Assembly: GCA_022819905.1 (NCBI GenBank)
Contig: JAJEGJ010000074.1
Location: 1 to 64,000, forward strand
Length of the DNA stretch: 64,000 nucleotides
Origin: Alphaproteobacteria bacterium
Lineage (GTDB): Bacteria; Pseudomonadota; Alphaproteobacteria; TMED109
Reading direction: 5' to 3'
Notes under the pieces: generated by a model
Database searches by the model: none
What the model was told of the DNA's origin: nothing
Seen by the model: only the letters and a program-made list of their open reading frames with translations
Translations under genes and position numbers: made by a program
Shown: one piece after another, positions 7,092-64,000 of the stretch
Layout: each line of letters starts with the position of its first letter
Numbering within the stretch: the first letter of the stretch is position 1

Positions 7092-7311
7092 ATGCAACCA
7101 GAGTGTCTCCCGGCCCAGCTGTGTTTTGAAGGCGTGGGCCGCCGTCGGGTGGAGGGCCGGTTCGGCGGCCGGCTGGCGACGGACGGCGGCGTGCTGCTGC
7201 TGCGGGAGGTGGACCGACGGTACCGGGTGACGGAGCGGCTGGCGGGTTGCTTCCGGGACCGTCGCTCGGCGGCGCGCATCAAGCACCGTCTGGAGACCCT
7301 GGTCGCCCAGT
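7092..7311 (+). pseudogene. IS1380-family transposase N-terminal fragment
   Basis: From ATG 7092 the frame reads CFEGVGRRRVEGRFGG, then LATDGGVLLLREVDRRYRVT and CFRDRRSAARIKH...LETLVAQ. This is the start of IS1380-type DDE transposases, which have a conserved GRF-GG-ITSDGG-LLLRE beginning. Homology ends at about 7311, where a different sequence (GGGTGCGAACCCC) begins and leads into an IS1595-like transposase. The remaining ~85% of the IS1380 gene is not in the window. Confidence 0.65.
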
Positions 7312-7399
7312 GGGTGCGAACCCCACCCAACCCTTGTCGCTTCGGTTGGAAGCAACCAGAGCGGTTTACGGAGGTAACGATGTAGACCGAATCACTGGT

Positions 7400-8386
7400 A
7401 TGAAGGGCCGCCGTCGGCCGGCTCAGCGAGACTGCCCGCATTGCGGGTCGCTGAACGTTCAGGCCAACATCAAGCACAAGACCATGACGCACCGGTGCCG
7501 GGAGTGCACAAGCGGCAAGAGCAAGACCATGTTCACGTTGCGGACGGGAACGGTCATGGAAGGCTCAAAGCTGCCCTACCGTGTGTGGGCAATCGCCATC
7601 TACCTGTTCACGGTCAACATCAAGGGCGTTTCTTCCATGCGCCTGCATCGTGAACTCGGCATCGGCCAGAAGGCTGCATGGTTCATGCCCCACCGATTGC
7701 GCAAGGCATTCGTGGCGGAAGTTGGCCCGTTCGATGGCCCTGTAGAGGCGGACGAGGCGTATTTTGGAGGGCGTCGCAAGAACATGTCGAACGCCAAGCG
7801 GAGGGCGTTCAAAGAGGTTGGCGCAGGCCGAGGCACCGCTGGCAAGACCGCCGTTGTCGGTGTGAAAGATCGGGCGACCAAGAAGGTGAAGGCCAAGGTC
7901 GTTGAGCGTACTGACAGGGCCACACTCCACCGCTTCGTGATGGGCGCTACGAGGCCCGGAGCCAAGGTCTACACCGATGATGCTTCGGGCTACGAAGGTA
8001 TCCTGTACGACCACGAGACCGTGAAGCACTCGGTCAGCGAGTACGTGCGGGGGCAGGCCCACACGAACGGCATTGAGTCGTTCTGGTCCATGCTTCGGCG
8101 CGGCTACTTGGGCACCTACCACAAGATGTCGCCGAAGCATCTGGAGCGGTACGTCGAGGAATTTGCCGGAAGGCACAATGTCCGCGATCAGGACACGCTC
8201 AAGCAGATGGGCGATCTGGCCCGCGGGATGTTTGGCAAGCGGGTCCGCTACGCCGATCTGATTGCCGACAACGGACTGGATTCAGGGGCGCGGAGATGGC
8301 CGCCAGGAATATTTCGATTCAGCCGCCTACTCGTGAACACGCCGTCACGATCACATTCAGCGCTCGTGGAGCATGGCGGTTGTTGA
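7400..8386 (+). CDS. IS1595-family transposase (altered ends, probably decayed)
   Basis: A zinc-ribbon-like start (CPHCG about residue 10; later CREC), then the ISXO2/IS1595 DDE domain: RVWAIAIYLFTVNIKGVSSM, VEADEAYFGGRRKNM (first Asp), KVYTDDASGY (second Asp) and HTNGIESFWSMLRRGYLG (third catalytic position). The protein resembles the intact transposase at 40471-41418. The usual N-terminal 40 residues are absent: an ATG with a good GGAGG box at about 7378 is followed at once by a stop codon, so translation would need ATG 7400. The C-terminus, after ADNGLDSGAR, runs into about 25 unrelated residues. Confidence 0.65.
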   Translation: MKGRRRPAQRDCPHCGSLNVQANIKHKTMTHRCRECTSGKSKTMFTLRTGTVMEGSKLPYRVWAIAIYLFTVNIKGVSSMRLHRELGIGQKAAWFMPHRLRKAFVAEVGPFDGPVEADEAYFGGRRKNMSNAKRRAFKEVGAGRGTAGKTAVVGVKDRATKKVKAKVVERTDRATLHRFVMGATRPGAKVYTDDASGYEGILYDHETVKHSVSEYVRGQAHTNGIESFWSMLRRGYLGTYHKMSPKHLERYVEEFAGRHNVRDQDTLKQMGDLARGMFGKRVRYADLIADNGLDSGARRWPPGIFRFSRLLVNTPSRSHSALVEHGGC

Positions 8387-38672: not shown

Positions 38673-38680
38673 AACCGGAA
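38673..38680 (+). repeat. Target site duplication, left (AACCGGAA)
   Basis: AACCGGAA directly before the left transposon end, repeated exactly at 41490-41497. Eight bases is the usual duplication for IS1595 elements. Confidence 0.9.
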
Positions 38681-38705
38681 GGGGATTATACAGATAGGTT
38701 GACTC
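38681..38705 (+). repeat. Left terminal inverted repeat of the R-M transposon
   Basis: Perfect inverted match to 41465-41489 over 25 bases. The last two bases overlap the stop codon of the endonuclease gene. Confidence 0.95.
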
Positions 38706-39528
38706 ACGGCCCTGAAACCGGGCGGAGTTTCTCACGTAGCGCGGCCTCGAAATCAGCGCGATTGATGGTCTTGGCAGCAAGCAGCTTGCTACTCGAATCC
38801 TCCAGCGTCATGACCTCCCAATGCCAGCGAATCAGCCTCCCGCCCACCATCGCAGGCACAAGCCAGATCACATCGCCATCGTTCAGATCCTGACTGGGGG
38901 ACTCTGACGGGCCGCCCACAAAGGCGAAGAACGGGCGGTCAACAGCAACGGCAATCTTCGACCCCCACCGCATGAGCGTGGGTGCCTTGATCTGCAGCTG
39001 CGGCAGTAGCCGCTTCGGGGCCGATGATCGGAAGTCCGGCCGTCGGTGACCGATCGGTGCGGGCGGATCACGGTCGGCATTGACGGCCAGTGCCTCGAAC
39101 TCCGGCCCCATGCCCGCGCCGGAGAAATAGACCGCCTGAACCTCCAAGCCGAACCAGCGGAATGCCCCGTTGACGCGGGCAATCACCATGTCGATACGGC
39201 CAGCCGACCGACCCGCTGATGCTGTGCTTTCCATGAACCCGACCTCGCGGGCCATGTGGGTGTCGTGGATATCGAACCCGACAACATCAGCCAGCCAATG
39301 CACAAGCAGTTGGTCTTGCTCAAACCGCGTCGGGCACGTGATCACCGGTTCCCCGTTCGGATGTTCGCGGATAGAGCAGACGCCACCCCTCTTGCTGCAC
39401 TGGCCGCCCGCGAACGGACATCCAAGCGGCGGCGCCTGCCCTAGTGCTGCACGCGCATGGGCTTGCCTCTGTTGGGGGCTGAGATCGCGAATGTCGCTCC
39501 CGAACCACTCCGCAATGCCGTAACTCAC
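38704..39528 (-). CDS. NotI-like type II restriction endonuclease
   Basis: A 274-residue enzyme that would cut unmethylated DNA. It resembles the NotI family: a Cys4 iron-binding cluster (CPFAGGQCSKRGGVCSI and TCPTRF, about 37-73) and the nuclease site SAGRIDMVIARVNGAFRWFG then LEVQAVYFSG (about 108-140). Asp of GRID, Glu and Gln of LEVQ match the D-ExQ version of the PD-(D/E)xK site that NotI uses. QAVYFSG is a strong family mark. ATG 39528 overlaps the methylase stop by four bases, so the nuclease is made only after the protective enzyme. The target sequence cannot be read from the protein. Confidence 0.8.
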   Translation of the reverse strand: MSYGIAEWFGSDIRDLSPQQRQAHARAALGQAPPLGCPFAGGQCSKRGGVCSIREHPNGEPVITCPTRFEQDQLLVHWLADVVGFDIHDTHMAREVGFMESTASAGRSAGRIDMVIARVNGAFRWFGLEVQAVYFSGAGMGPEFEALAVNADRDPPAPIGHRRPDFRSSAPKRLLPQLQIKAPTLMRWGSKIAVAVDRPFFAFVGGPSESPSQDLNDGDVIWLVPAMVGGRLIRWHWEVMTLEDSSSKLLAAKTINRADFEAALREKLRPVSGP

Positions 39529-40463
39529 GTGAACAGACTTTCCCTTGTAATCACCAGTTCCGGTGTCCGCTCATGGTGTGTCGTTTTCATCGTGACCGTG
39601 ACCGCGTGGAAGTGGAATCTGCGGATCAACTGCACGATCTCCGCCGACAGGTCATAGGTCATCAGGAAGTTGGCGCGGCGGTCGGCCATCGCCTCGAACA
39701 GCCGGACATGGTTGATCTCGTTGTGGACGTACAGCCGCTTCCCCGCCTTCTTGCCGCCCGCGGCCGTGTACGGCGGGTCAATGAAGAAACAGGTGTCATC
39801 CCGAACGGCGATGATTTCCGCTAGTTCCAGCCCGTCGCCTTCAAGGAAGGCCAGTTGCTCACTGTAGGCCGCGATCGCCTCCAGTCTGCTGCACAACGTC
39901 TCCGGGTACCAGCGGGAGGCCACACCCTTGCCGTTCTCTCCGCTGTTTGCCAGGGACGCGCCAGGCGCAAGGATGCCGCCCCGCCGGGTGCGGTTCAGAA
40001 CCAGGGTGCGGAACCCGTGTTCCACAACGTTGGTCGGTGCCGTTTCAGCGAGCCGCTGGACACGCTCGCGGGTAGGCTCGAACGCTGCTACGCGCTCCAT
40101 CAGTTCGTCGCTGTAGTCAATCGCCGAACGCCAGAACGCGGATACGTCATGGTCCAGATCGACCATGAGCGCACGTTCCGCCAGCCCCTCCATAACCGCA
40201 GTCAGAGAGACAATCCCGCCACCGGCGAACGGTTCCATCATCAGCGGGTGCGGGCCGCGTCGGGACGTCTCAGCCAGCCAACGGCGAATGTGGGGGATCA
40301 GCCACGTCTTGCCGCCCGGATAGCGTAGCGGGCTGCGTTGCGGCACTTCCGCAACGTTCACGGCGGGGATCAGCGAGGCCGGGAACTTCCTCTCCCGACC
40401 GGACCGGAGCAGTGCGCGGGCTAACGCTTCCGGTTCGACGCCGGAGCAGTGCGGGTGTTCCAT
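39525..40463 (-). CDS. D12-class adenine-specific DNA methyltransferase
   Basis: A 312-residue N6-adenine methyltransferase of the alpha (Dam/D12) class. RSPLRYPGGKTWLIPHIRRW (about 43-62) is the D12 start; MEPFAGGGIVSLTAV (motif I, binds S-adenosylmethionine) and DDTCFFIDPPYTAAGG (motif IV, DPPY, catalytic) follow in that order. KRLYVHNEINHVRLFEAM is typical of the class. It should protect host DNA from the NotI-like partner, although NotI itself is paired with a cytosine methylase, so the recognition site probably contains adenine and differs from NotI. Start ATG 40463, seven bases after the transposase stop. Confidence 0.88.
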   Translation of the reverse strand: MEHPHCSGVEPEALARALLRSGRERKFPASLIPAVNVAEVPQRSPLRYPGGKTWLIPHIRRWLAETSRRGPHPLMMEPFAGGGIVSLTAVMEGLAERALMVDLDHDVSAFWRSAIDYSDELMERVAAFEPTRERVQRLAETAPTNVVEHGFRTLVLNRTRRGGILAPGASLANSGENGKGVASRWYPETLCSRLEAIAAYSEQLAFLEGDGLELAEIIAVRDDTCFFIDPPYTAAGGKKAGKRLYVHNEINHVRLFEAMADRRANFLMTYDLSAEIVQLIRRFHFHAVTVTMKTTHHERTPELVITRESLFT

Positions 40464-40470
40464 GCCACCC

Positions 40471-41418
40471 TCACGCGGTCAGATCACGCAGCATCAGCCG
40501 CCGACCAATCAAGCCAGCGGCTACCGTCTGCATCTGGGCCAGCGTGTCGAGTTCACGCATCCCCTGACGGCCTGCAAACTCGTTCACGTAGCGTTGCAGG
40601 TGTTTCTCGCTCATGTGGTGATAGGTGCCGATGTAGCCCCTCTTGAGCATCGACCAGAAGGATTCAATCCCGTTGGTGTGCGCCATGTCCCGGACATACT
40701 CGGAGACGCTGTGCTTGACCGTCTCATGGTCGCGGGGGAGGCCGCTGTAGGCCGTCGCCTCGTCGGTGTAGACCTTGGCATCGGTCGCGGCGTTAGCAGT
40801 GACGAAGCCTTGCAGGGTCTTGCCGTCGGTGTTCTGCACGACCTTGGCCCGAACCTTCTTTGTGGCGCGATCCTTGACCCCGACGACGGCTGCCTTGCCA
40901 GCGCCGCCACGTCCGGTGCCGGCCAGTTCGCGACGCTTGGAGTTGGACATGTTCTTCCGGCGGCCGCCTACGTAGGTCTCGTCAGCTTCCACCGGCCCGG
41001 CGAAAGGGACTGAATCCTCGTCTGCCCACGCCTCCCGAATCCGGTGGAGCATGAACCATGCAGTTGCCTGCGTTACACCGAGATCGCGGTGCAGGCGCAT
41101 GGACGACACGCCTTTCAGGCTGATGCACTCCAAGTAGATCGCGATTGCCCACTTGCGGAGCGGCACCTTGGAAGCCGCCATAGCTGTTCCCGTCTTGACC
41201 GAGAAGTACTTGCGGCAATCGGTGCAGCGGTAGGGCGATTTGGCATGGCTGCATTCGTGGGTGCGAGTGCTGCCACACCGTGGGCAGAAGCGTTTGCCTT
41301 CTGGCCATACCTGCTGCTCAAACCAGACGCGGGCTGCTTCATCGTCCGGGAACATGTCGAACAACTGCACCATCGTGATGCCGTTGCGGTCGGATTTACC
41401 GGGTGATTTGTGGGCCAT
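40471..41418 (-). CDS. IS1595-family transposase
   Basis: A 315-residue DDE transposase. N-terminal MVQLFDMFPDDEAARVWFEQ and a zinc ribbon (CPRCG, CTDC, about 45-75) recognise the ends; the ISXO2-like catalytic core has VEADETYVGGRRKNM, AKVYTDEATAYSG and HTNGIESFWSMLKRGYIGTY. All expected residues are present. ATG 41418 is chosen because GGAGG lies seven bases upstream; an earlier ATG at 41451 has no such site. It heads the operon that also encodes the methylase and endonuclease. The protein is clearly related to the broken copy at 7400-8386. Confidence 0.93.
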   Translation of the reverse strand: MAHKSPGKSDRNGITMVQLFDMFPDDEAARVWFEQQVWPEGKRFCPRCGSTRTHECSHAKSPYRCTDCRKYFSVKTGTAMAASKVPLRKWAIAIYLECISLKGVSSMRLHRDLGVTQATAWFMLHRIREAWADEDSVPFAGPVEADETYVGGRRKNMSNSKRRELAGTGRGGAGKAAVVGVKDRATKKVRAKVVQNTDGKTLQGFVTANAATDAKVYTDEATAYSGLPRDHETVKHSVSEYVRDMAHTNGIESFWSMLKRGYIGTYHHMSEKHLQRYVNEFAGRQGMRELDTLAQMQTVAAGLIGRRLMLRDLTA

Positions 41419-41464
41419 GTCGCGTCCTCCGTTGCCTGTTCTATATAGCACACGGACCGCTACG

Positions 41465-41489
41465 GAGTCAACCTATCTGTATAATCCCC
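41465..41489 (-). repeat. Right terminal inverted repeat of the R-M transposon
   Basis: Perfect inverted copy of 38681-38705. It lies about 45 bases upstream of the transposase start and may carry part of the operon promoter. Confidence 0.95.
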
Positions 41490-41497
41490 AACCGGAA
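41490..41497 (+). repeat. Target site duplication, right (AACCGGAA)
   Basis: Exact copy of 38673-38680. Confidence 0.9.
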
Positions 41498-55174: not shown

Positions 55175-55354
55175 GTCACGGCGAAGACGCCCCCGTGTCC
55201 GCGCGCTGAGGAGCGATTCGGCGGCGACGGGGAACGCTCGACCAGCGACAACACCGATCGTTCCGCCCGGGACAGGTTCACAAACAGGATCCGGAGTTTC
55301 CGCCTCCGGCGCTTCGCGTGCCCCGAACCGCTGCTGCGGGACCTCGCAGTCCCC

Positions 55355-56623
55355 CTAAGTTTCTGGCCGGTTCTGCCACGGCCTGAGCAACAGGTCGCGA
55401 TGGACCAGCACCGCGAGCGGCCAGCCCGGGCGCACCCGCAGGGTCGGCTGGACGTCGAGTTCCCGTTTCACGAGTGCGCCCGCGGCCTTGTCCGTCCCGT
55501 CCTGCACGGACTCGCGGAACGCGCGGGTCACGTCGCCTTCGTCCACCCAGGCGAGCTCCGTGCCGATGCCGAGCAGGGACGACAGCAGGATTCCCCGGGC
55601 CAGCCGCCAGCCGTGCATGTCGACGGTGTCGCTGACCCCGGCATGGCCGGCCTCGTCGGTCGCCGGCAGGTTCTCGACGACCACCGAGGCTCCGTCCGGC
55701 AGGATCAGGCGGTGCCAGACCACGAGCGCCCGTTCCTGTCCGAACGCCACCTGGCTGTCGTAGCGCCCGAGGAGGCGGGTTCCGCGCGGCAGCAGGAGGA
55801 CGGTGCCGGTCACGGAATCGAATACGTCCTCCGTCAGCTGAGCCACGACAAAGCCGGGGAGATCCGAGTTCAGCCCGGTGATCAGCGCCGCACGGAGCAC
55901 GCTGCCGGCCATCACCTGCCACGGCGACAGCGGCTCTTCCAACAGATGCGGGTTGTAGATGTCGGCGGACGGGGCGGCTTCGAGGAACGCCTGCATCCGG
56001 GCCTGCCGGCCGGGCTCGCTCGCCTGGACCAGGCCCGGTTCGGGACCGGCCGGGACGCGGGCGCCCGGCGCCGGACCCGCAGCGGGCGGGGCGGTTCTCC
56101 GGACGGGAAAGAAGAGTTCCGATCGCAGGGCTTCCGTCGCCCGCTTTGCCTGCCGTTTCCGTTCCGCCGCATCCTCGTCGGCCGGCAGGCCTGGCGCCGT
56201 CTCGTCCGGCACGGGCGGCGGCGCGGGTTCCGGCACGGGCGCGAACGCGATCTCCTGATAGGTCTCCGGCAGTCGCTCGATCGCCTCCGGGTGCGGCTGG
56301 CCGGGATGCCAAATCTCCTGGACCGTGCCGCCTTCCTCCCGCGGCGGGGAATCGAGGGCCACCGTGAAGACGCCGAACACCGCCAGCGCGCCAGCGCCGG
56401 CAAGCACGGCCAGAACCCTGCGGTTGATGCGCGTGACCCGGCGAGGCGACGCCCGGAGCTCGAAGTCGGCCGGATCGCCCTTCGCGGGCGCCTCGCCGGC
56501 ATCGTCGGGTCCGGGCGGTGCTTCCTCCGTCACCTCGAGGCCGGGCAGCGGGAGTTCGGGCTCGGCGTCGGGCGGCGCCCCGACGTCCGGCGCGGTGGGC
56601 TCCGACCCGCCCGGGCGGCTCAC
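55355..56623 (-). CDS. trbI: TrbI, conjugation-channel protein (VirB10 type)
   Basis: A 422-residue protein with a cytosolic Pro/Glu-rich start, one membrane span (VLAVLAGAGALAVFGVFTVA, about 70-89), a Pro-rich periplasmic linker and a C-terminal VirB10 domain (about 225-415): NPHLLEEPLSPWQVMAGSVL, LPGFVVAQLTEDVFDSVTG, LLPRGTRLLGRYDSQVAFGQ and VVWHRLILPDGASV. It bridges inner and outer membranes in the type IV secretion channel. It is the last gene of the trb operon seen; start overlaps the trbG stop by four bases. Confidence 0.92.
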   Translation of the reverse strand: MSRPGGSEPTAPDVGAPPDAEPELPLPGLEVTEEAPPGPDDAGEAPAKGDPADFELRASPRRVTRINRRVLAVLAGAGALAVFGVFTVALDSPPREEGGTVQEIWHPGQPHPEAIERLPETYQEIAFAPVPEPAPPPVPDETAPGLPADEDAAERKRQAKRATEALRSELFFPVRRTAPPAAGPAPGARVPAGPEPGLVQASEPGRQARMQAFLEAAPSADIYNPHLLEEPLSPWQVMAGSVLRAALITGLNSDLPGFVVAQLTEDVFDSVTGTVLLLPRGTRLLGRYDSQVAFGQERALVVWHRLILPDGASVVVENLPATDEAGHAGVSDTVDMHGWRLARGILLSSLLGIGTELAWVDEGDVTRAFRESVQDGTDKAAGALVKRELDVQPTLRVRPGWPLAVLVHRDLLLRPWQNRPET

Positions 56624-57594
56624 GACCGGCGCTCGATTCGCACCACCGTCTGCGGGTCCGTGCCCAGCCTGAGCTCGGCCACGTCGAACAGGCGATCGAC
56701 CACGTAGTACGACCCGCGCACGCGGTAGTTCACCAGCGCCACCTGGCCCTCCGGCCCGATCAGGAAGAGGGGCGGCGCTTCGGCCGTTCCCAGCGGGAAC
56801 TGGATGAAGACGCGCCGGCCGTCGTCGAAGGCCCGGACCGGCCGCCAGGGCGGCTGGTCACCGAGGATCCGGTAACCGAAATGCAGTGCCTCCGGCCGGA
56901 TGCCGTCCGCAGCAGCGGCGCGAGCCGGGCCCTGGCTTCGCACGGCCGCGGTCCGGAACGCCAACTCCTCCTCCGGATACGTCCACGACACCGAGGCCAT
57001 GTAGGTGGCGTCCAGCGACTGGAGTTCCACGTGGTAGACCCGCCGGTCGGTCGCGATGACGAGGTTCGTCACCAGCTTCGACGCGGTCGGTTTCACCAGC
57101 ACGTGCGGGCGCAGGTTGGCCCCGCTGCCGCTCGCGGTTTCCGCGACCTTCCACCGGACGGTGTCCCCGGCCGAGAGCGACACCAGCTGCTCGCCCGGGG
57201 CCAGGGCCAGGTCCGTGACCTGGCCGGGCGCCGTATAGACCTGATAGAGCGCGCCTTCCGTCCAGGGAAAGACCTGGATCGCGTTCACGTAGCCGTCTGT
57301 CGCCGGTTCCAGCCGAGCCACGGCATTGGCCGCCTGCACCCGCTGCACCGGGTTGGCGGCGGCTCCTGCCGCCGCATCGTCGCGCGCGTTCACCGACGCC
57401 ACCGGCTTGAGCTGCCCCGGCAGCGGCAGCGGGGTCGGCACCGCGACCACCTCGGCCTCGGCCTCGATGATTCGCGTCGCCGGTACGGCGACGGTCGGGG
57501 CGGAACCCGGCCCGGCTCCGCTCTCGGCGGGGGGCTCGGTCACGCAACCGGTCGCGACTACGGCGACGAATAGCGCGGCAACACGGTTCTTCAT
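56620..57594 (-). CDS. trbG: TrbG, outer-membrane-channel protein (VirB9 type)
   Basis: A 324-residue lipoprotein (lipobox VATGC, Cys17). The N-terminal VirB9 domain (about 95-210) has AIQVFPWTEGALYQVYTAPG and TDLALAPGEQL; the C-terminal part (about 240-324) HFGYRILGDQPPWRPVRAFD, VFIQFPLGTAEAPPLFLIGP and NYRVRGSYYVVDRLFDVAEL is the TrbG/VirB9 beta-sandwich that contacts TrbI. Overlaps both neighbours by four bases. Confidence 0.93.
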   Translation of the reverse strand: MKNRVAALFVAVVATGCVTEPPAESGAGPGSAPTVAVPATRIIEAEAEVVAVPTPLPLPGQLKPVASVNARDDAAAGAAANPVQRVQAANAVARLEPATDGYVNAIQVFPWTEGALYQVYTAPGQVTDLALAPGEQLVSLSAGDTVRWKVAETASGSGANLRPHVLVKPTASKLVTNLVIATDRRVYHVELQSLDATYMASVSWTYPEEELAFRTAAVRSQGPARAAAADGIRPEALHFGYRILGDQPPWRPVRAFDDGRRVFIQFPLGTAEAPPLFLIGPEGQVALVNYRVRGSYYVVDRLFDVAELRLGTDPQTVVRIERRS

Positions 57595-58292
57595 GGTTTG
57601 TCTCCCGTCACGAGGTCACGCGACCAGTGGAAATCGGTGATGTAGATCCCAAGCGGATTCGCCCGGAGCGCCGCCGCATCGGCGGGCGGCTGGACGACGT
57701 AGGAAAGAAGGGCGGTATGCCGGCTGGTCTCGGCCGCCCCGCCCCGGAGCGATTCGTCCTCGCGCCAGCGGAGCTCGAAGCTGGTCTCCGATGACCGCAC
57801 CGCGCTCGTCATTTCCACCGTGACCGTGCGCACGCCGACGTCCCGGAACGGCTCTGCCGTCCGCGCGTAGTCGCTGAGACGCGTCGCGGCCCGGCTGGTG
57901 ACGAACGCATAGGCGCGCAGCCAGTTCTTCCGCAGCACGACCGGGTCGATGGGAACCGCCCGGACGTGTTCCACGAACTCCGCGAGGTGGTAGGCGATCT
58001 GGCCGTCGTTCGGGTGATGCGCCTCCAGGGCCGGCCCGACGGCCCGCACCGCGCCCAGCGCATCGACTTCCACGACGTAGGGCACCACGCTGCTGCGGCT
58101 CGCCATGTGCCAGAAGCCGGCGGCGAGCACGCCCGCGGTCGCCAGCGCGCCAAGGCAGGCGAGGCGCCAGTTGCGGGCCTGGACGCGAGCGCTGCCCAGG
58201 CGTTCGTCCCACACCTGCGCGGCTTTCTGGTACGGGGTCACCGGGGCCGGGGCGCGGCCGTAGGAGACCCCGGGGCGGGTCGGAGCACTCAT
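57591..58292 (-). CDS. trbF: TrbF, VirB8-like conjugation protein
   Basis: A 233-residue bitopic inner-membrane protein. NPYQKA-like start (TPYQKAAQVWDERLGSARVQ), one span (LACLGALATAGVLAAGFWHM, about 46-65) and a periplasmic NTF2-like VirB8 domain: VPYVVEVDALGAVRAVGPAL, LAEFVEHVRAVPIDPVVLRK, FRDVGVRTVTVEMTSAV, and the final PLGIYITDFHWSRDL, a TrbF mark. It helps assemble the channel. Overlaps trbL and trbG by four bases. Confidence 0.92.
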   Translation of the reverse strand: MSAPTRPGVSYGRAPAPVTPYQKAAQVWDERLGSARVQARNWRLACLGALATAGVLAAGFWHMASRSSVVPYVVEVDALGAVRAVGPALEAHHPNDGQIAYHLAEFVEHVRAVPIDPVVLRKNWLRAYAFVTSRAATRLSDYARTAEPFRDVGVRTVTVEMTSAVRSSETSFELRWREDESLRGGAAETSRHTALLSYVVQPPADAAALRANPLGIYITDFHWSRDLVTGDKP

Positions 58293-59371
58293 TGGCGGTC
58301 CTTTCTGCGGTCTCGGTCGGGAGCAGGTCCGTCACCGGACTCCCAGCCCCCATCGGCCACCCGCGCGGCTTCGCGGACCGTCGCCGCGGCTTCGCGGCGC
58401 TCCGCCGTTGCGGGAGTTTCGTGGGGTCCGGAAGGCAGGCGCGCGGCCGCCCGGACGGCGCCGGACGCGGTGTCCTGCACGCGTGCGGCACCGGCCGCGG
58501 CAATGCCCAGCGCGCCCGCGACGAAATCCCTGGCCCGGCGCGCCGTGCCGGTGGCGGCACCGGCATCGAGCTGCGGGCCACCGGCGATCAGCCCGCTCGC
58601 CACGGCCGGGCCGTGGATCCCGATCCCGAGCAGGGCGAACGCCGCCAGCAGCGGCATGGCCCGTGCGATGGTCACTTCCTGACCTTGCAGCGCGCTCGCG
58701 ACGTCCGCGAAGATCGTGCTGCCGATCCCGATGACCACGGCCAGCACCATGACCTTCACGCCGGACGCCATCACGTTGCCGAGCACCCGTTCGGCGAGGA
58801 ACGTGGTCCGGCTCCAGAGCGCGAACGGCACCAGCACGAAACCGGCCAGTGCCATCAGCTTGAACTCCACCAGGGTCACGAACATCTGCACCGCGAGCAC
58901 GAAGAACGCAGCTACGACCCCGAGCCAGGCCAGCAGCAGAATCGCGATCTCGACCGCGTTCACCACGATTTCGGGAAACCCGATCAGTGTCTGGACGTCG
59001 AGCAGGATCGGATGGGCGGCCGCGACACCGGTATTGGCGACGAAGCCTGGCCGAAGCAGGTCGTCGGGACGGATGGGCGCGGCCGATGCAGTGAGTCCGA
59101 GATCGACGAACGATGAGAAGATGATGTCCGCCAGCAACGCGTAGTTGTTGAGGATCAGGGCAAACGCGCCGACGTACAAGACCTTCCGCAACAGACCTGC
59201 GAACACGTCGCCGTCGGTCGTCAACGCCCATGCCAACCCGGCCAGAACGATGTCGACGGTGACGAGGATCCGGATCAGAAAGCCGATGTCGGGCCCCAGC
59301 AGACCAAAGCCGCTGTCGATGAACGTGAGAAACGTCTCGGTGAACCGGTCGACGACGTTGAGATCATCCAC
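58289..59371 (-). CDS. trbL: TrbL, polytopic inner-membrane conjugation protein (VirB6 type)
   Basis: A 360-residue membrane protein: VVDRFTETFLTFIDSGFGLL start, six or so membrane spans (for example ILVTVDIVLAGLAWALT, VLYVGAFALILNNYALLA, AVEIAILLLAWLGVVAAFF, VMVLAVVIGIGSTIFADVA) and a polar Ala/Arg-rich C-terminal tail (about 290-360). GFPEIVVNAV and FVLVPFALW are TrbL marks. It probably forms the inner-membrane pore base. It starts 11 bases after trbJ ends. Confidence 0.92.
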   Translation of the reverse strand: MDDLNVVDRFTETFLTFIDSGFGLLGPDIGFLIRILVTVDIVLAGLAWALTTDGDVFAGLLRKVLYVGAFALILNNYALLADIIFSSFVDLGLTASAAPIRPDDLLRPGFVANTGVAAAHPILLDVQTLIGFPEIVVNAVEIAILLLAWLGVVAAFFVLAVQMFVTLVEFKLMALAGFVLVPFALWSRTTFLAERVLGNVMASGVKVMVLAVVIGIGSTIFADVASALQGQEVTIARAMPLLAAFALLGIGIHGPAVASGLIAGGPQLDAGAATGTARRARDFVAGALGIAAAGAARVQDTASGAVRAAARLPSGPHETPATAERREAAATVREAARVADGGWESGDGPAPDRDRRKDRQ

Positions 59372-59382
59372 CTTGGCTGGCC

Positions 59383-60072
59383 CTACGGAAGCGGCGTGTA
59401 CAGGTTGCCGGTGCCGATGGACATGCCGAACCGGGCCCGGGCTTCGCGGGCAGCCGTGTCGAGCCGGAGGCGCTCCGCGGCCTGCGCGCGCTGGTGCGCG
59501 GCGAGCAGGGCCTGTGTGCGCAGCTGCTCGCGCACCTGCATGGCAGCGATTTGGTTGCCGGCCTGCGTGACCGCCAGTGTTCCCGCGGCCCCGCGGGATT
59601 CGGATACGAGCCGCCCCAGCAGCCGCTCAGCCTCCCGGGTTTCCTCGACCATGCCAGTCTGCACGTCGTGGCTGTGCCGCCAGCCGGCGCGGATCGTCTC
59701 GGCCCGGACCCGGGCCTGCTGGACCCGCGTGGTCCTCGCGAGCGTCGTCGCGACCGTCTCCGGGAACAGCGTTCCCGTTGTCACCGCCGCCGCGTTCCGG
59801 CCCCAGGACATGCCGGGCGCATCGGCAAAGAGGGTGCGAAGCCAGGCCTTTCCCGTGTCCAGGACGGCGCTCCCGTCGAAGTCCAGCCGGAGCAGGTTCT
59901 GCTCCAGATTCGCCACCATTTCCTGGAGATGACGGACGGCGGCGAGGGAGCGGACGGCGGTCAGCAGGTTCTGGGCGTGGTTCGCGCCGTCGTAGACCGC
60001 GAACGCGTCCGCGGACCGGGGCGTGGCCGCCAGTGCGATCGCCAATGCCAGGGCGAGGCCGCGCCGCCTCAC
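59383..60072 (-). CDS. trbJ: TrbJ, periplasmic conjugation protein (VirB5-like)
   Basis: A 229-residue exported protein. Signal peptide LALALAIALAATPRSADA, then FAVYDGANHAQNLLTAVRSL and LQEMVANLEQNLLRLDF, the usual TrbJ start after cleavage, and long helices (ETIRAGWRHSHDVQTGMVEE, TQAGNQIAAMQVREQLRTQA). Members may sit on the pilus tip or shaft. GTG 60072 overlaps the trbE stop (GTGA). An entry-exclusion gene (trbK) often follows; none is present here. Confidence 0.88.
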   Translation of the reverse strand: MRRRGLALALAIALAATPRSADAFAVYDGANHAQNLLTAVRSLAAVRHLQEMVANLEQNLLRLDFDGSAVLDTGKAWLRTLFADAPGMSWGRNAAAVTTGTLFPETVATTLARTTRVQQARVRAETIRAGWRHSHDVQTGMVEETREAERLLGRLVSESRGAAGTLAVTQAGNQIAAMQVREQLRTQALLAAHQRAQAAERLRLDTAAREARARFGMSIGTGNLYTPLP

Positions 60073-62471
60073 GCCCGCCCGCTCCGGCGAGCGCTGTTTT
60101 CGGCCACGAACGCCTCCAGAAACCGCTCCGGCCCGGCCCGGGCCATGGCGGCATCGATGCGCGCCTGGTCCTCCTTGGACGAGGCGCCGGCAAACGTCAG
60201 CGCGATCTCGCCCAGCTGGAGATCGAACAGCCGGGCCCCACGTCGTGACTGGTAGTAGTAGTGACGTTTCGGCGTGGCTCGGGCCAGCAGTTCGATCTGC
60301 CGCTCGTTCAGTCCGAGCCGGGTGTAGACCTCCCGGGCGGCAGGTTCCTGCGCGCGGTCGTTGGGGAGGAAGATCCGTGACGGGCAGGATTCCAGGATCG
60401 CCGGCGCCACGGTGCTCTCCACGACGTCGCTCGGCGACTGGGTGGCGAACACCACCGACACATTGCGCTTGCGGAGGGTCTTGAGCCAGTCGCGGATCTG
60501 CGCGGCGAACAGGGGATCGTCGAGGAAGACCCAGGCCTCGTCGAGCACCAGCATCGTCGGCCGGCCGTCGAACCGCTCGCGCAGCCGGTGGAACAGGTAA
60601 CCGAGGACCGGTGCCGCGAGACCCTCGTTCTCGAGCAGCTCCTCCATCTCGAAGCCCTGCACCTCGGACAGGGCCAGCGAATCGTCGTCGGCATCCAGCA
60701 TCCGCCCATGCGGGCCGGCGAGCGTCCACGGCTGCAGGGCGTCCCGGAGCGCCGGGCGGCTCAGCAACAGCCCGAGGCCCGTGAGGGTGCGCTCGCGCGG
60801 CGGTGCGCCCGCGAGGTTGGAGAGAGCGTCCCACAGCTCGCGCCGCGCGCCGGGGTCAATGTCGATGCCCGCGCGCCGGAGCAGCGCCGCCGTCCACTCG
60901 AGCGCGAAGGCGCGCTCGACGTCCAGCTCGATATGCCGGAGCGGCTGGAACGCCAGCTGCCCGGCAGCGCCGCCCAGGTCCAGGAAGGTGCCGCCCATGC
61001 CGAGCACCGCGGCCCGGCACGAGGCGCCCTTGTCGAACACGTAGACCTGGGCGCCGGGATAGCGGCGGAACTGCAGCGCCAGCATGGCCAGGAGCACGGA
61101 CTTCCCGGCCCCGGTGGGACCGACCACCAGCGTGTGTCCCACGTCGCCGACATGCAGCGAGAGCCGGAACGGCGTGGTGCCGCGCGTCTGCGCGTGGAGC
61201 AGCGGCGGACCGCCCAGATGGGCGTTCCGTTCCGGCCCGGCCCAGGTGGCCGACAGCGGCATCATGTGCGCCAGGTTCAGCGTGTGGACGACCGGTTGCC
61301 GGACGTTCGCATAGGCGTGCCCCGGCAGGGACCCCAGCCACGCCTCGACCGCATTGAGGCGTTCACGGATCGTGGCAAAGCCCCGACCGTGCAGGATCCG
61401 CTCGAGTTCGAGCTGATGCTCGGCGGCGACGGCCGGCGACCTGTGCCGCACGGTCACGCTCGTGGTGACGTGCCCGAACGCGACCAGGTCCTCGCCCAGC
61501 TCCTGCAGCGCCCGATCCGCGTCGGCGGCCTTCACGTCGGCATCCGAATTGACCAGCGCCGCTTCCTGACTGAAGACGACCTCCTTCAGCATGGCCAGCA
61601 CCGACTTCCGTTTGGCGAACCACTGCCGCCGACAGCGCCCGAGCTCGCGCTCCGCTTCGTCCTTCCCGAGGACGAGGAACCGGGTCATCCACCGGTAGGC
61701 GAACGGAAGGTCGTTGAGGTCATCCAGCAGCCCGGGGCGCGTGAGGTTCGGGAACCCCAGCACGGTCAGGGTGCGGAGGTGGAAGTCTCCCAGCGTGGGT
61801 TCGATGCCGCCGGCAAGCGGCGTATCGGCCAGGACTGCATCCAGGTGCGCCGGAATCCCCGGTACCGTGATGCGCCCGCCCGACGCGGAAACCGTGCCAT
61901 GCAGGTAGGTGAGGGTGTCCTCGTCCGACATCGGCGCCAGGCTCGGCATCACGTCTCCCAGGAGCATGAAGGCACGGTCGGTCCGTGCCTGAAAGTTCTC
62001 GAGGTGCGACCGCCAGGTGATCGACCCGCCGGCATCGGCGGCGGCGCGCTCCACCAGGGTTTCAGACGCCCGAGACCACGAATCGGCGGGCGGAAGGTAG
62101 GTGAGCGTCAGCCGGAACAGCGTCTCGAAATGACGACTCCTCCCGGCAAATTCCCGGCGCCGTTCGTCGTCGACCAGTTGCGAGAGGCGATCAGGAAACG
62201 TGCTTCGCGGGTAACTCCGGGCTGGAACGCGTTCGGCGTCGAAGTACAGGGCCCAGCCGGACCCGAACCGCCGCAGCACGTTGTTGACGCGAGCGGTCAC
62301 GGCCATCAGTTCGGATTCGGTGGAACTCTCGAGATCGGGACCGCGGAACCGGGCTGAGCGCTGGAACGAGCCGTCCTTGTTGAGGATGACTCCCGGCGCG
62401 ACCAAGAACGCCCATGGCAGGAGGTCGGCGAGACCGGCCGGCCGGGCCCGGTACTCCCGGAGATTCAGCAT
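60069..62471 (-). CDS. trbE: TrbE, conjugation ATPase (VirB4 type)
   Basis: An 800-residue ATPase. MLNLREYRARPAGLADLLPW is the TrbE start; the N-terminal CagE/TrbE region runs to about 420; Walker A is VVGPTGAGKSVLLAMLALQF (about 435-454), Walker B is TMLVLDEAWVFLDDPLF, and FATQSPSDVVESTVAPAILE is the conserved motif after it. It powers pilus assembly and substrate transfer. Start ATG 62471 overlaps the end of trbD by seven bases. Full length, no break. Confidence 0.95.
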   Translation of the reverse strand: MLNLREYRARPAGLADLLPWAFLVAPGVILNKDGSFQRSARFRGPDLESSTESELMAVTARVNNVLRRFGSGWALYFDAERVPARSYPRSTFPDRLSQLVDDERRREFAGRSRHFETLFRLTLTYLPPADSWSRASETLVERAAADAGGSITWRSHLENFQARTDRAFMLLGDVMPSLAPMSDEDTLTYLHGTVSASGGRITVPGIPAHLDAVLADTPLAGGIEPTLGDFHLRTLTVLGFPNLTRPGLLDDLNDLPFAYRWMTRFLVLGKDEAERELGRCRRQWFAKRKSVLAMLKEVVFSQEAALVNSDADVKAADADRALQELGEDLVAFGHVTTSVTVRHRSPAVAAEHQLELERILHGRGFATIRERLNAVEAWLGSLPGHAYANVRQPVVHTLNLAHMMPLSATWAGPERNAHLGGPPLLHAQTRGTTPFRLSLHVGDVGHTLVVGPTGAGKSVLLAMLALQFRRYPGAQVYVFDKGASCRAAVLGMGGTFLDLGGAAGQLAFQPLRHIELDVERAFALEWTAALLRRAGIDIDPGARRELWDALSNLAGAPPRERTLTGLGLLLSRPALRDALQPWTLAGPHGRMLDADDDSLALSEVQGFEMEELLENEGLAAPVLGYLFHRLRERFDGRPTMLVLDEAWVFLDDPLFAAQIRDWLKTLRKRNVSVVFATQSPSDVVESTVAPAILESCPSRIFLPNDRAQEPAAREVYTRLGLNERQIELLARATPKRHYYYQSRRGARLFDLQLGEIALTFAGASSKEDQARIDAAMARAGPERFLEAFVAENSARRSGRA

Positions 62472-62734
62472 CCGTGGTAGTTCCGGTGCCGAAGGTGGCG
62501 GGCGAGCACCTCCACGAACTGCGCATCGTGCCGGGCGCAGAACACCCCGATCGCCTGCACCACGATCCAGAGGACCAGGCCGGCGACCCATTGCTGGAGC
62601 CCCAGCCCGACGGCGGCGGACAGCGTCCCGTTCAGGATGGCCAGGGACCGCGGCACGCCGGCCATCATGATCGGCTCCGTGAGGGCGCGGTGCAGCGGCA
62701 CCTCGAAACCCTCCGGGGGTGACGAGCGGTTCAC
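62465..62734 (-). CDS. trbD: TrbD, small inner-membrane conjugation protein (VirB3 type)
   Basis: An 89-residue protein: EGFEVPLHRALTEPIMMAGV is the VirB3/TrbD start, and two close spans (LAILNGTLSAAVGLGLQQWV, AGLVLWIVVQAIGVFCARHD) follow, with FVEVLARHLRHRNYHGC at the end. It helps TrbE/VirB4 dock at the membrane. Start is GTG 62734, overlapping the trbC stop by four bases. Confidence 0.9.
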   Translation of the reverse strand: MNRSSPPEGFEVPLHRALTEPIMMAGVPRSLAILNGTLSAAVGLGLQQWVAGLVLWIVVQAIGVFCARHDAQFVEVLARHLRHRNYHGC

Positions 62735-63063
62735 GGAAGCAGAGCCCCGCCGCCGAACGAGAAGAACGTGAGGAAGAAGGATGCGGCCCCGAACGCGATC
62801 GAGAGGCCGAAGACGATCTGGATCATCCGGCGGAACCCGCCGGAGGTGTCTCCGAAGGCGAGCGTGAGACCGGTCACCGTGATGATGATCACGGCCATGA
62901 TGCGCGCCACCGGTCCCTCGACCGAAGTCAGGATGCTCTGGAGCGGCGCTTCCCACGGCATGCCCGATCCGGCCGCGAACGCCGGCCCGGCCGCCCCGAG
63001 TGCGACGAGCAGCACAAGCACGGCGCGGGTCAGGCGCCGACGTGGAGTGGGTTTGATCATCAT
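62731..63063 (-). CDS. trbC: TrbC, pilin subunit precursor (VirB2 type)
   Basis: A 110-residue prepilin: signal peptide RAVLVLLVALGAAGPAFAAG, then two hydrophobic helices of the mature pilin (IMAVIIITVTGLTLAFGDTS and IVFGLSIAFGAASFFLTFF) joined by a short polar loop (GGFRRMIQ). The SGMPWEAPLQSILTSVEGPV segment is a TrbC mark. The mature peptide may be cyclised as in other TrbC pilins. ATG 63063 overlaps the trbB stop (ATGA). Confidence 0.92.
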   Translation of the reverse strand: MMIKPTPRRRLTRAVLVLLVALGAAGPAFAAGSGMPWEAPLQSILTSVEGPVARIMAVIIITVTGLTLAFGDTSGGFRRMIQIVFGLSIAFGAASFFLTFFSFGGGALLP

Positions 63064-64000
63064 GCGGAAGGTCTCCCTGAGGGGTCCGGAGCGGCGCCGA
63101 GGTGCTGGAAGGCGTAGCTGCCGTCCGGACCCAGCCCGTGGACGGCAAGCAGCGTTTCGACGCGGCGCCGCGTGCCGGTGCGGCCGACGAACACCACAAG
63201 ATCGACGGCCTCGGCCACGAGCCGGCGGTCGACCGCGACGGCCGCTTCCTGGATCAGTTGTTCGAGGCGGGCGAGCGCGGCCGCGGCCGAATTGGCGTGG
63301 AGCGTCGCCAGCCCGCCCGGATGACCCGTGTTCCATGCCTTCACGAGAGCGAGGGCCTCCGGGCCGCGCACTTCGCCGACGACGATCCGGTCCGGACGCA
63401 GCCGGAGCGTCGAACGCAGCAGGTCGGAGAGCGTGATGTGGCCCGGTTGGGTGCGGAGCGCCACACAATCGGCGGTTTCGCAAACCAGTTCCCGGGTGTC
63501 TTCCAGCAGCACGACGCGGTCGCCCAGGTCGCGCATCTCGTGCAGGAGCGCGTTGGCCAGCGTCGTCTTGCCCGAGGAGGCGCCACCCGCCACCACGATG
63601 TTCCGGCGGGTCTGGACCGCCTCCCGCAGCAACTCCGCCTGTGTGCGGCTCAAGGCACCGTTCTCGACGTAGGCGTCCAGGACGATGACCCGGCCGGCCG
63701 GTCGGCGAATCGAGAAGCACGGATCGCGGGCCACCGGCGGCAGCACGCCCTCGAAGCGCTCGCCTGTCGCGGGCAGCTCGGCGCTCACAATCGGGTGGTC
63801 GGCCCCGGATGCCCGACCCGCCTGGCTGGCAACCAGGCGAACGACGCGTTCGACCGCCGACGGGGCGAGGCAGACCCCGGTGTCGACACGACCCTGGATC
63901 GCGTGGTCCAGCCACAGACGGCCGTCGGGATTGACCGTGATCTCCAGGACATGCGGGTTGGCGAGCGCACGGCTCACCTCCGAGCCCATGGCGGTACGCA
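63060..64000 (-). CDS. trbB: TrbB, conjugation ATPase (VirB11 type), N-terminus beyond the window
   Basis: At least 309 residues; the frame is open to the right edge and continues upstream of ATG 63989 as RTAMGSEVS, which looks like TrbB, so the real start lies outside. ITVNPDGRLWLDH is the N-terminal domain; Walker A IVVAGGASSGKTTLANAL, acidic VVLLEDTREL, Walker B RIVVGEVRGPEAL and the His box GHPGGLATLHAN are complete. It is a hexameric motor for pilus assembly. First gene of the trb operon seen. Confidence 0.93.
   Translation of the reverse strand, partial: RTAMGSEVSRALANPHVLEITVNPDGRLWLDHAIQGRVDTGVCLAPSAVERVVRLVASQAGRASGADHPIVSAELPATGERFEGVLPPVARDPCFSIRRPAGRVIVLDAYVENGALSRTQAELLREAVQTRRNIVVAGGASSGKTTLANALLHEMRDLGDRVVLLEDTRELVCETADCVALRTQPGHITLSDLLRSTLRLRPDRIVVGEVRGPEALALVKAWNTGHPGGLATLHANSAAAALARLEQLIQEAAVAVDRRLVAEAVDLVVFVGRTGTRRRVETLLAVHGLGPDGSYAFQHLGAAPDPSGRPSA

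Follow-up and report, generated by a model that had tools for sequence, protein, structure and literature searches.

A 2,809-bp transposon of the IS1595 family lies at positions 38681-41489 of the 64,000-nucleotide stretch of DNA analysed here (the window). It is bounded by identical 25-bp terminal inverted repeats (TIRs) beginning GGG and by an exact 8-bp target-site duplication (TSD). It contains three adjacent genes, all on the minus strand, which encode a transposase, a D12 adenine methyltransferase (M) and a NotI-family endonuclease (R); no other convincing gene lies inside. The element is filled almost completely. The genes are packed as one operon, although their translation from a single message is inferred. 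The transposase ATG follows a GGAGG, the methylase has its own GAGGG, methylase and nuclease overlap by four bases, and the stop codon of the nuclease gene runs into the terminal repeat. The 33-bp string formed by TSD and TIR occurs nowhere else in the window at up to two mismatches, and none is expected from shuffled sequence (0.00). The observation made in the initial annotation, an IS1595 transposon with these ends, this duplication and only these three genes, is therefore confirmed to the base.

Table 1. Positions of the IS1595-family element, its genes and other features of the window
Position	Strand	Feature	Details
38673-38680		Left target-site duplication	AACCGGAA
38681-38705	+	Left 25-bp terminal inverted repeat	GGGGATTATACAGATAGGTTGACTC
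38704-39528	-	NotI-family type II restriction endonuclease	274 aa; GTG start overlaps the methylase stop (GTGA); stop codon partly in the left TIR
39525-40463	-	D12-class (Dam-like) N6-adenine DNA methyltransferase	312 aa; presumed cognate modification enzyme
40471-41418	-	IS1595-family DDE transposase (ISXO2-like)	315 aa from the ATG with RBS; the open reading frame list opens it at 41451
41465-41489	-	Right 25-bp terminal inverted repeat	Identical to the left repeat
41490-41497		Right target-site duplication	AACCGGAA
37218-38567		Lipoprotein gene beside the insertion	
7247-8386		Second IS1595-type transposase gene	No terminal repeats could be found
55278-63989	-	Run of type IV secretion (VirB/Trb-like) genes	Possibly part of an integrated conjugative element; judged from the translations only

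The transposase matches PF12762 (E 1.3e-41), PF12760 (2.4e-7) and NF033547 (5.5e-58), all above the curated cut-offs, and retains the conserved residues D146, D219 and N249/E252 together with four zinc-ribbon cysteines. These features, with the GGG ends and the 8-bp duplication, place the element in the IS1595 family; assignment to a named subgroup (ISPna2, IS1016, ISNwi1 and others) was not attempted. With one transposase and one pair of short ends, it is not a composite transposon in which two IS copies flank the cargo. No relaxase gene was seen among its open reading frames and oriT was not sought, so whether it might count as an integrative and mobilizable element is left undecided. The GC content of the element (62.5%) is below the window mean (66.5%), but only by about 1.3 s.d., and says little about its origin.

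Of six genomes from the same genus, one (G407) has the locus without the element. The two flanks, joined at a single AACCGGAA, align to G407 without a gap at 742 of 768 positions (97% identity). The element is present in one copy in its own genome, thus no second hop is seen there, and no methylase relative was found in any of the other 27 genomes of the order (28 searched). The three genes therefore arrived together, after the split from G407, from outside the sampled relatives. The host is probably an alphaproteobacterium, as the best relatives of its threonyl-tRNA synthetase in a plasmid collection are all from Alphaproteobacteria, at about 58-61%. It might be supposed that a bare IS1595 copy had inserted next to a resident restriction-modification (R-M) locus, with the repeats enclosing it by accident or by later rearrangement, since M-R pairs without a transposase do exist in related lineages (loci L014 and L015). 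However, the empty site lacks all three genes and has one copy of the duplication, and the ends are exact; this reading is refuted by the empty site and is considered very improbable.

The nuclease matches PF12183 with an E-value of 1e-39 (136.8 bits against a cut-off of 22). Sequence searches of the PDB, with the nuclease alone or with a profile, missed NotI, and only a fold search found it. A structural model built from 15 sequences (pLDDT 91) has NotI, with and without DNA (PDB 3c25/3bvq), as its best solved matches, with Foldseek E-values of 1.3e-8 and 2.3e-8 and, against 3c25, a Z score of 18.1 over 261 residues. Residues D113, E129 and Q131, along with cysteines 37, 44 and 65, are invariant in 15 relatives and C51 is nearly so, in keeping with the PD-(D/E)XK-type residues and cysteine cluster of the family.

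The methylase matches PF02086 (E 8.9e-12; 45.7 bits against a cut-off of 22) and the PADLOC profiles PD-Lambda-5_B (1.2e-43) and MTase_II (8.3e-27), and its EPFAGGG and DPPY motifs are conserved. The gene pair is not a PD-Lambda-5 defence system, as only the B-component profile matches, while the neighbouring protein is NotI-like and matches no PADLOC model.

The same two gene families recur as linked genes on Aeromonas, Burkholderia and Thermus plasmids, on many viral contigs and on chromosomes. In both the M and the R tree, the window, the genome G065, a Chloroflexi MAG and the genomes G366 and G774 form one supported clade (100/99 and 100/100). This long linkage is the main evidence that the two enzymes are cognate, and the relation rests upon it, because NotI-family nucleases also pair with cytosine methylases. 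Whether both enzymes act on the same sequence, with methylation blocking cutting, was not measured. The initial annotation had named in advance, as grounds for rejecting its view, the finding of the same genes without the repeats. This turned out to be the case for the M-R pair, which also lives outside transposons, but it does not undo the element seen here.

G065, from another family of the class, has the transposase, methylase and nuclease genes in the same order. Its transposase is frameshifted, however, its nuclease is broken, and only the transposase-side end is recognisable by eye. Holding the transposases of the window and G065 together in a tree is weakly rejected (AU p 0.03), so that shared ancestry of the whole unit is doubtful but not excluded; the same R-M type may have been captured twice, or the cargo swapped. 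Further copies of the same ends were sought, as had been proposed in the initial annotation, but none was found in 385 genomes of the class at up to three mismatches beyond the element itself, and there was no exact copy in viral contigs.

In genus g224 (L148-L153) the same methylase is kept without a neighbouring nuclease in most genomes, while G366 and G774 keep the pair, which looks like nuclease loss. It is possible that the unit in the window moved only once and that its cargo is dead or decaying, as the broken nuclease of G065, the solitary methylases of g224 and the single copy here might suggest. This is thought unlikely, as all three frames are open, the active-site residues are invariant, the ends are identical and the insertion is young.

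To ask whether sibling IS1595 elements carry cargo, relatives were chosen by transposase similarity alone. Paired ends with 8-bp duplications delimit 27 more elements, 14 in the same genus and 13 elsewhere in the class. The weakest are L104, whose duplication matches at 7 of 8 positions, and L192, whose ends match at 12 of 18; about a dozen sibling transposases for which no ends could be found, owing to contig edges or decay, were left out of the counts. Shuffling of the flanks produced such pairs in 0 of 120 trials. All 27 have additional DNA beyond the transposase, amounting to about 0.7 to 6.5 kb, and ten carry R-M-like genes. L190 has an N4/N6 methylase plus a BglII-family nuclease (PF09195, 1.7e-32), L188 a C5 methylase plus a GIY-YIG protein, and L197 a type IIG enzyme plus a specificity subunit, whilst L204, also type IIG, is one chain with restriction, methylase and specificity domains. 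L097, L101, L103, L189, L202 and L203 carry an N4/N6 methylase fused to a C-terminal HNH nuclease, in either orientation relative to the transposase, and these are candidate single-chain R-M proteins; L202 and L203 are near copies. With the window, this makes 11 of 28 elements.

Other cargo was also seen among the siblings. L199 carries a UzuA homologue, and L137 (contig C61 of genome G406) a toxin-antitoxin-like DUF433 + PIN pair. Of five named plasmids with IS1595, two (Roseomonas marmotae p1318-1 and Methylobacterium oryzae pMOC1) have an element with ends, an 8-bp duplication and a PIN/VapC toxin gene, and none has R-M. A conserved protein of about 140 aa, without a Pfam match in the three cases tested, sits next to the transposase in four sibling elements (L105:4353-4796, L134:6977-7378, L189:5080-5505 and L203:3860-4285), two of them with methylase-HNH cargo, and may be an accessory gene. 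The lipoprotein gene beside the insertion in the window belongs to a family that appears as cargo inside L139 (2893-4290; 35% identity to this protein) and L104, and that shares a transferrin-binding-protein-like C-terminal barrel.

The methylase-BglII element provides a multi-copy case. G300, a closed genome in a single 4.1-Mb contig (C1), has copies of this 2,748-bp element at four sites (L190/L207-L210) that differ at one base at most. Two copies have their own exact duplications (TTAAAATT and TAAAAAAA), while the other two have unmatched flanks that share octamers with other copies, as expected if copies recombined. This shows that a complete R-M unit of this type has spread within one genome. 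On a transposase tree of 42 rows, the R-M label needs 9 changes, at least 6 of them forced by well-supported branches, compared with 9.6 for shuffled labels. R-M cargo is therefore not clustered in one transposase lineage, and it has been exchanged repeatedly.

Taken together, the element is best explained as a single-unit IS1595-family transposon (a tIS, an insertion sequence with passenger genes) whose cargo is a complete type II R-M system, and this explanation is considered likely. The analysis itself establishes the boundaries, the gene content, the insertion of the whole unit with target duplication into a formerly empty site, the fold match of the nuclease model, the conserved active-site residues and the long-term linkage of methylase and nuclease. 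The mechanism, on the other hand, is inferred from what is understood of IS1595/IS1-type DDE transposases and type II R-M systems. In this view, the transposase binds the 25-bp ends, mobilises all three genes together and duplicates 8 bp of target. The three genes would be translated from one message, with M before R, so that protection precedes cutting on arrival in a new cell. Once established, the R-M pair would cut unmethylated incoming DNA and may penalise cells that lose the element. The element would belong to a wider population of IS1595 elements in this class, probably Alphaproteobacteria, that repeatedly take up and exchange R-M and related modules downstream of the transposase. The transposon anatomy is all but certain and a functional R-M unit is likely, although enzyme activity, recognition site and methylation were not examined, whilst addiction as the main benefit is only a tentative suggestion.

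The interpretation offered in the initial annotation, of an R-M pair carried as passenger of an IS1595 transposon, is thus supported, but two of its parts go further than the evidence. It had proposed that the pair would be hard to lose; addiction was not assayed, and the relatives in which the nuclease is broken or absent show that it can be lost. It had also noted no knowledge of this combination, which holds for the papers searched, but the element is not a singleton, since its siblings carry at least four other kinds of R-M cargo.

Two other views of the cargo may be considered. The methylase could be kept mainly to regulate the transposon by methylating its ends or promoter, as Dam does for IS10 and IS50, with the nuclease being secondary; the tight packing of the transposase and methylase genes and the methylases without a nuclease in relatives would be consistent with this. 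It is nevertheless improbable, since the nuclease is conserved and co-inherited with the methylase, and the sibling elements carry unrelated methylase classes (C5, N4/N6) with their own nucleases, which fits R-M cargo better than end-specific regulation. Alternatively, the cargo may pay the host as phage defence and persist by that benefit rather than by addiction. The defence-type cargo of L199, the UzuA homologue, points this way, as does the closeness of the methylase to the PD-Lambda-5_B profile, which derives from a system described as a compacted RM+Abi system (PMC9519451). The toxin-antitoxin-like genes of L137 and the PIN/VapC genes on the two plasmids point instead to stabilisation modules. 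The two readings are compatible, and defence is regarded as possible, though slightly less likely than not.

More speculatively, IS1595 transposons in this class may act as a general shuttle for interchangeable self-preserving modules, in which complete R-M systems of many unrelated types, and occasionally toxin-antitoxin-like pairs, are repeatedly captured behind one small transposase, giving one-transposase elements whose cargo makes their loss costly to the cell. This is not excluded, but it falls somewhat short of an even chance. How R-M systems travel has long been argued, and most documented vehicles are large (plasmids, prophages, ICEs, Tn7-like elements) or composite (IS-flanked). Here the vehicle is minimal, with one transposase and a pair of 25-bp ends around one R-M system, a proven empty site and, in a related genome, four near-identical copies of another such element. 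If the pattern holds, selfish stabilisation of a transposon by R-M becomes directly testable, because the cargo can be deleted or swapped without touching transposition and natural variants with different R-M types on related transposases already exist.

Passenger genes in IS1595 elements and mobile R-M systems are both known, and R-M on insertion sequences and transposons in general has been mentioned (PMC4176335). No description of complete R-M systems inside single IS1595 units was found in the papers searched, although this is absence of evidence in a limited library, and the wider pattern is worth a dedicated survey. Among elements with passengers, tISCpe8 and MTnSag1/tISSag10 (Siguier et al. 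2009, cited in PMC5704250) share with the present element an IS1595 DDE transposase, terminal inverted repeats, an 8-bp duplication and a non-transposition gene between the ends. The passenger of tISCpe8 is lincomycin resistance and both are mobilisable elements, whereas here the cargo is a complete R-M pair and no relaxase gene is seen among the open reading frames. NotI itself shares the predicted endonuclease fold and a D-(E)xQ-type active-site pattern, but identity in the structural alignment is only about 16%, and the specificity of the present nuclease is unknown and need not be GCGGCCGC. Adjacent genes for a NotI-family nuclease and a D12 adenine methylase are found on Aeromonas pKAM497_4, Burkholderia pIJB1 and Thermus pTbrSNM4-1c; there they are carried directly by the plasmids, with the nuclease gene first and without an IS1595 transposase, and the proteins are 35-46% identical to those of the window. 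In IS-flanked (composite) R-M units and in the IS-linked movement of PaeR7I (PMC3031569), R-M genes are likewise moved by insertion-sequence enzymes, but two IS copies flank the R-M DNA, or an IS forms a cointegrate with it, while here M and R lie inside one IS between its own two ends. Finally, R-M modules are common cargo of Tn7-like transposons (PMC8649781), which are large, multi-protein and site-directed, whereas the element described here is a 2.8-kb unit with one transposase.
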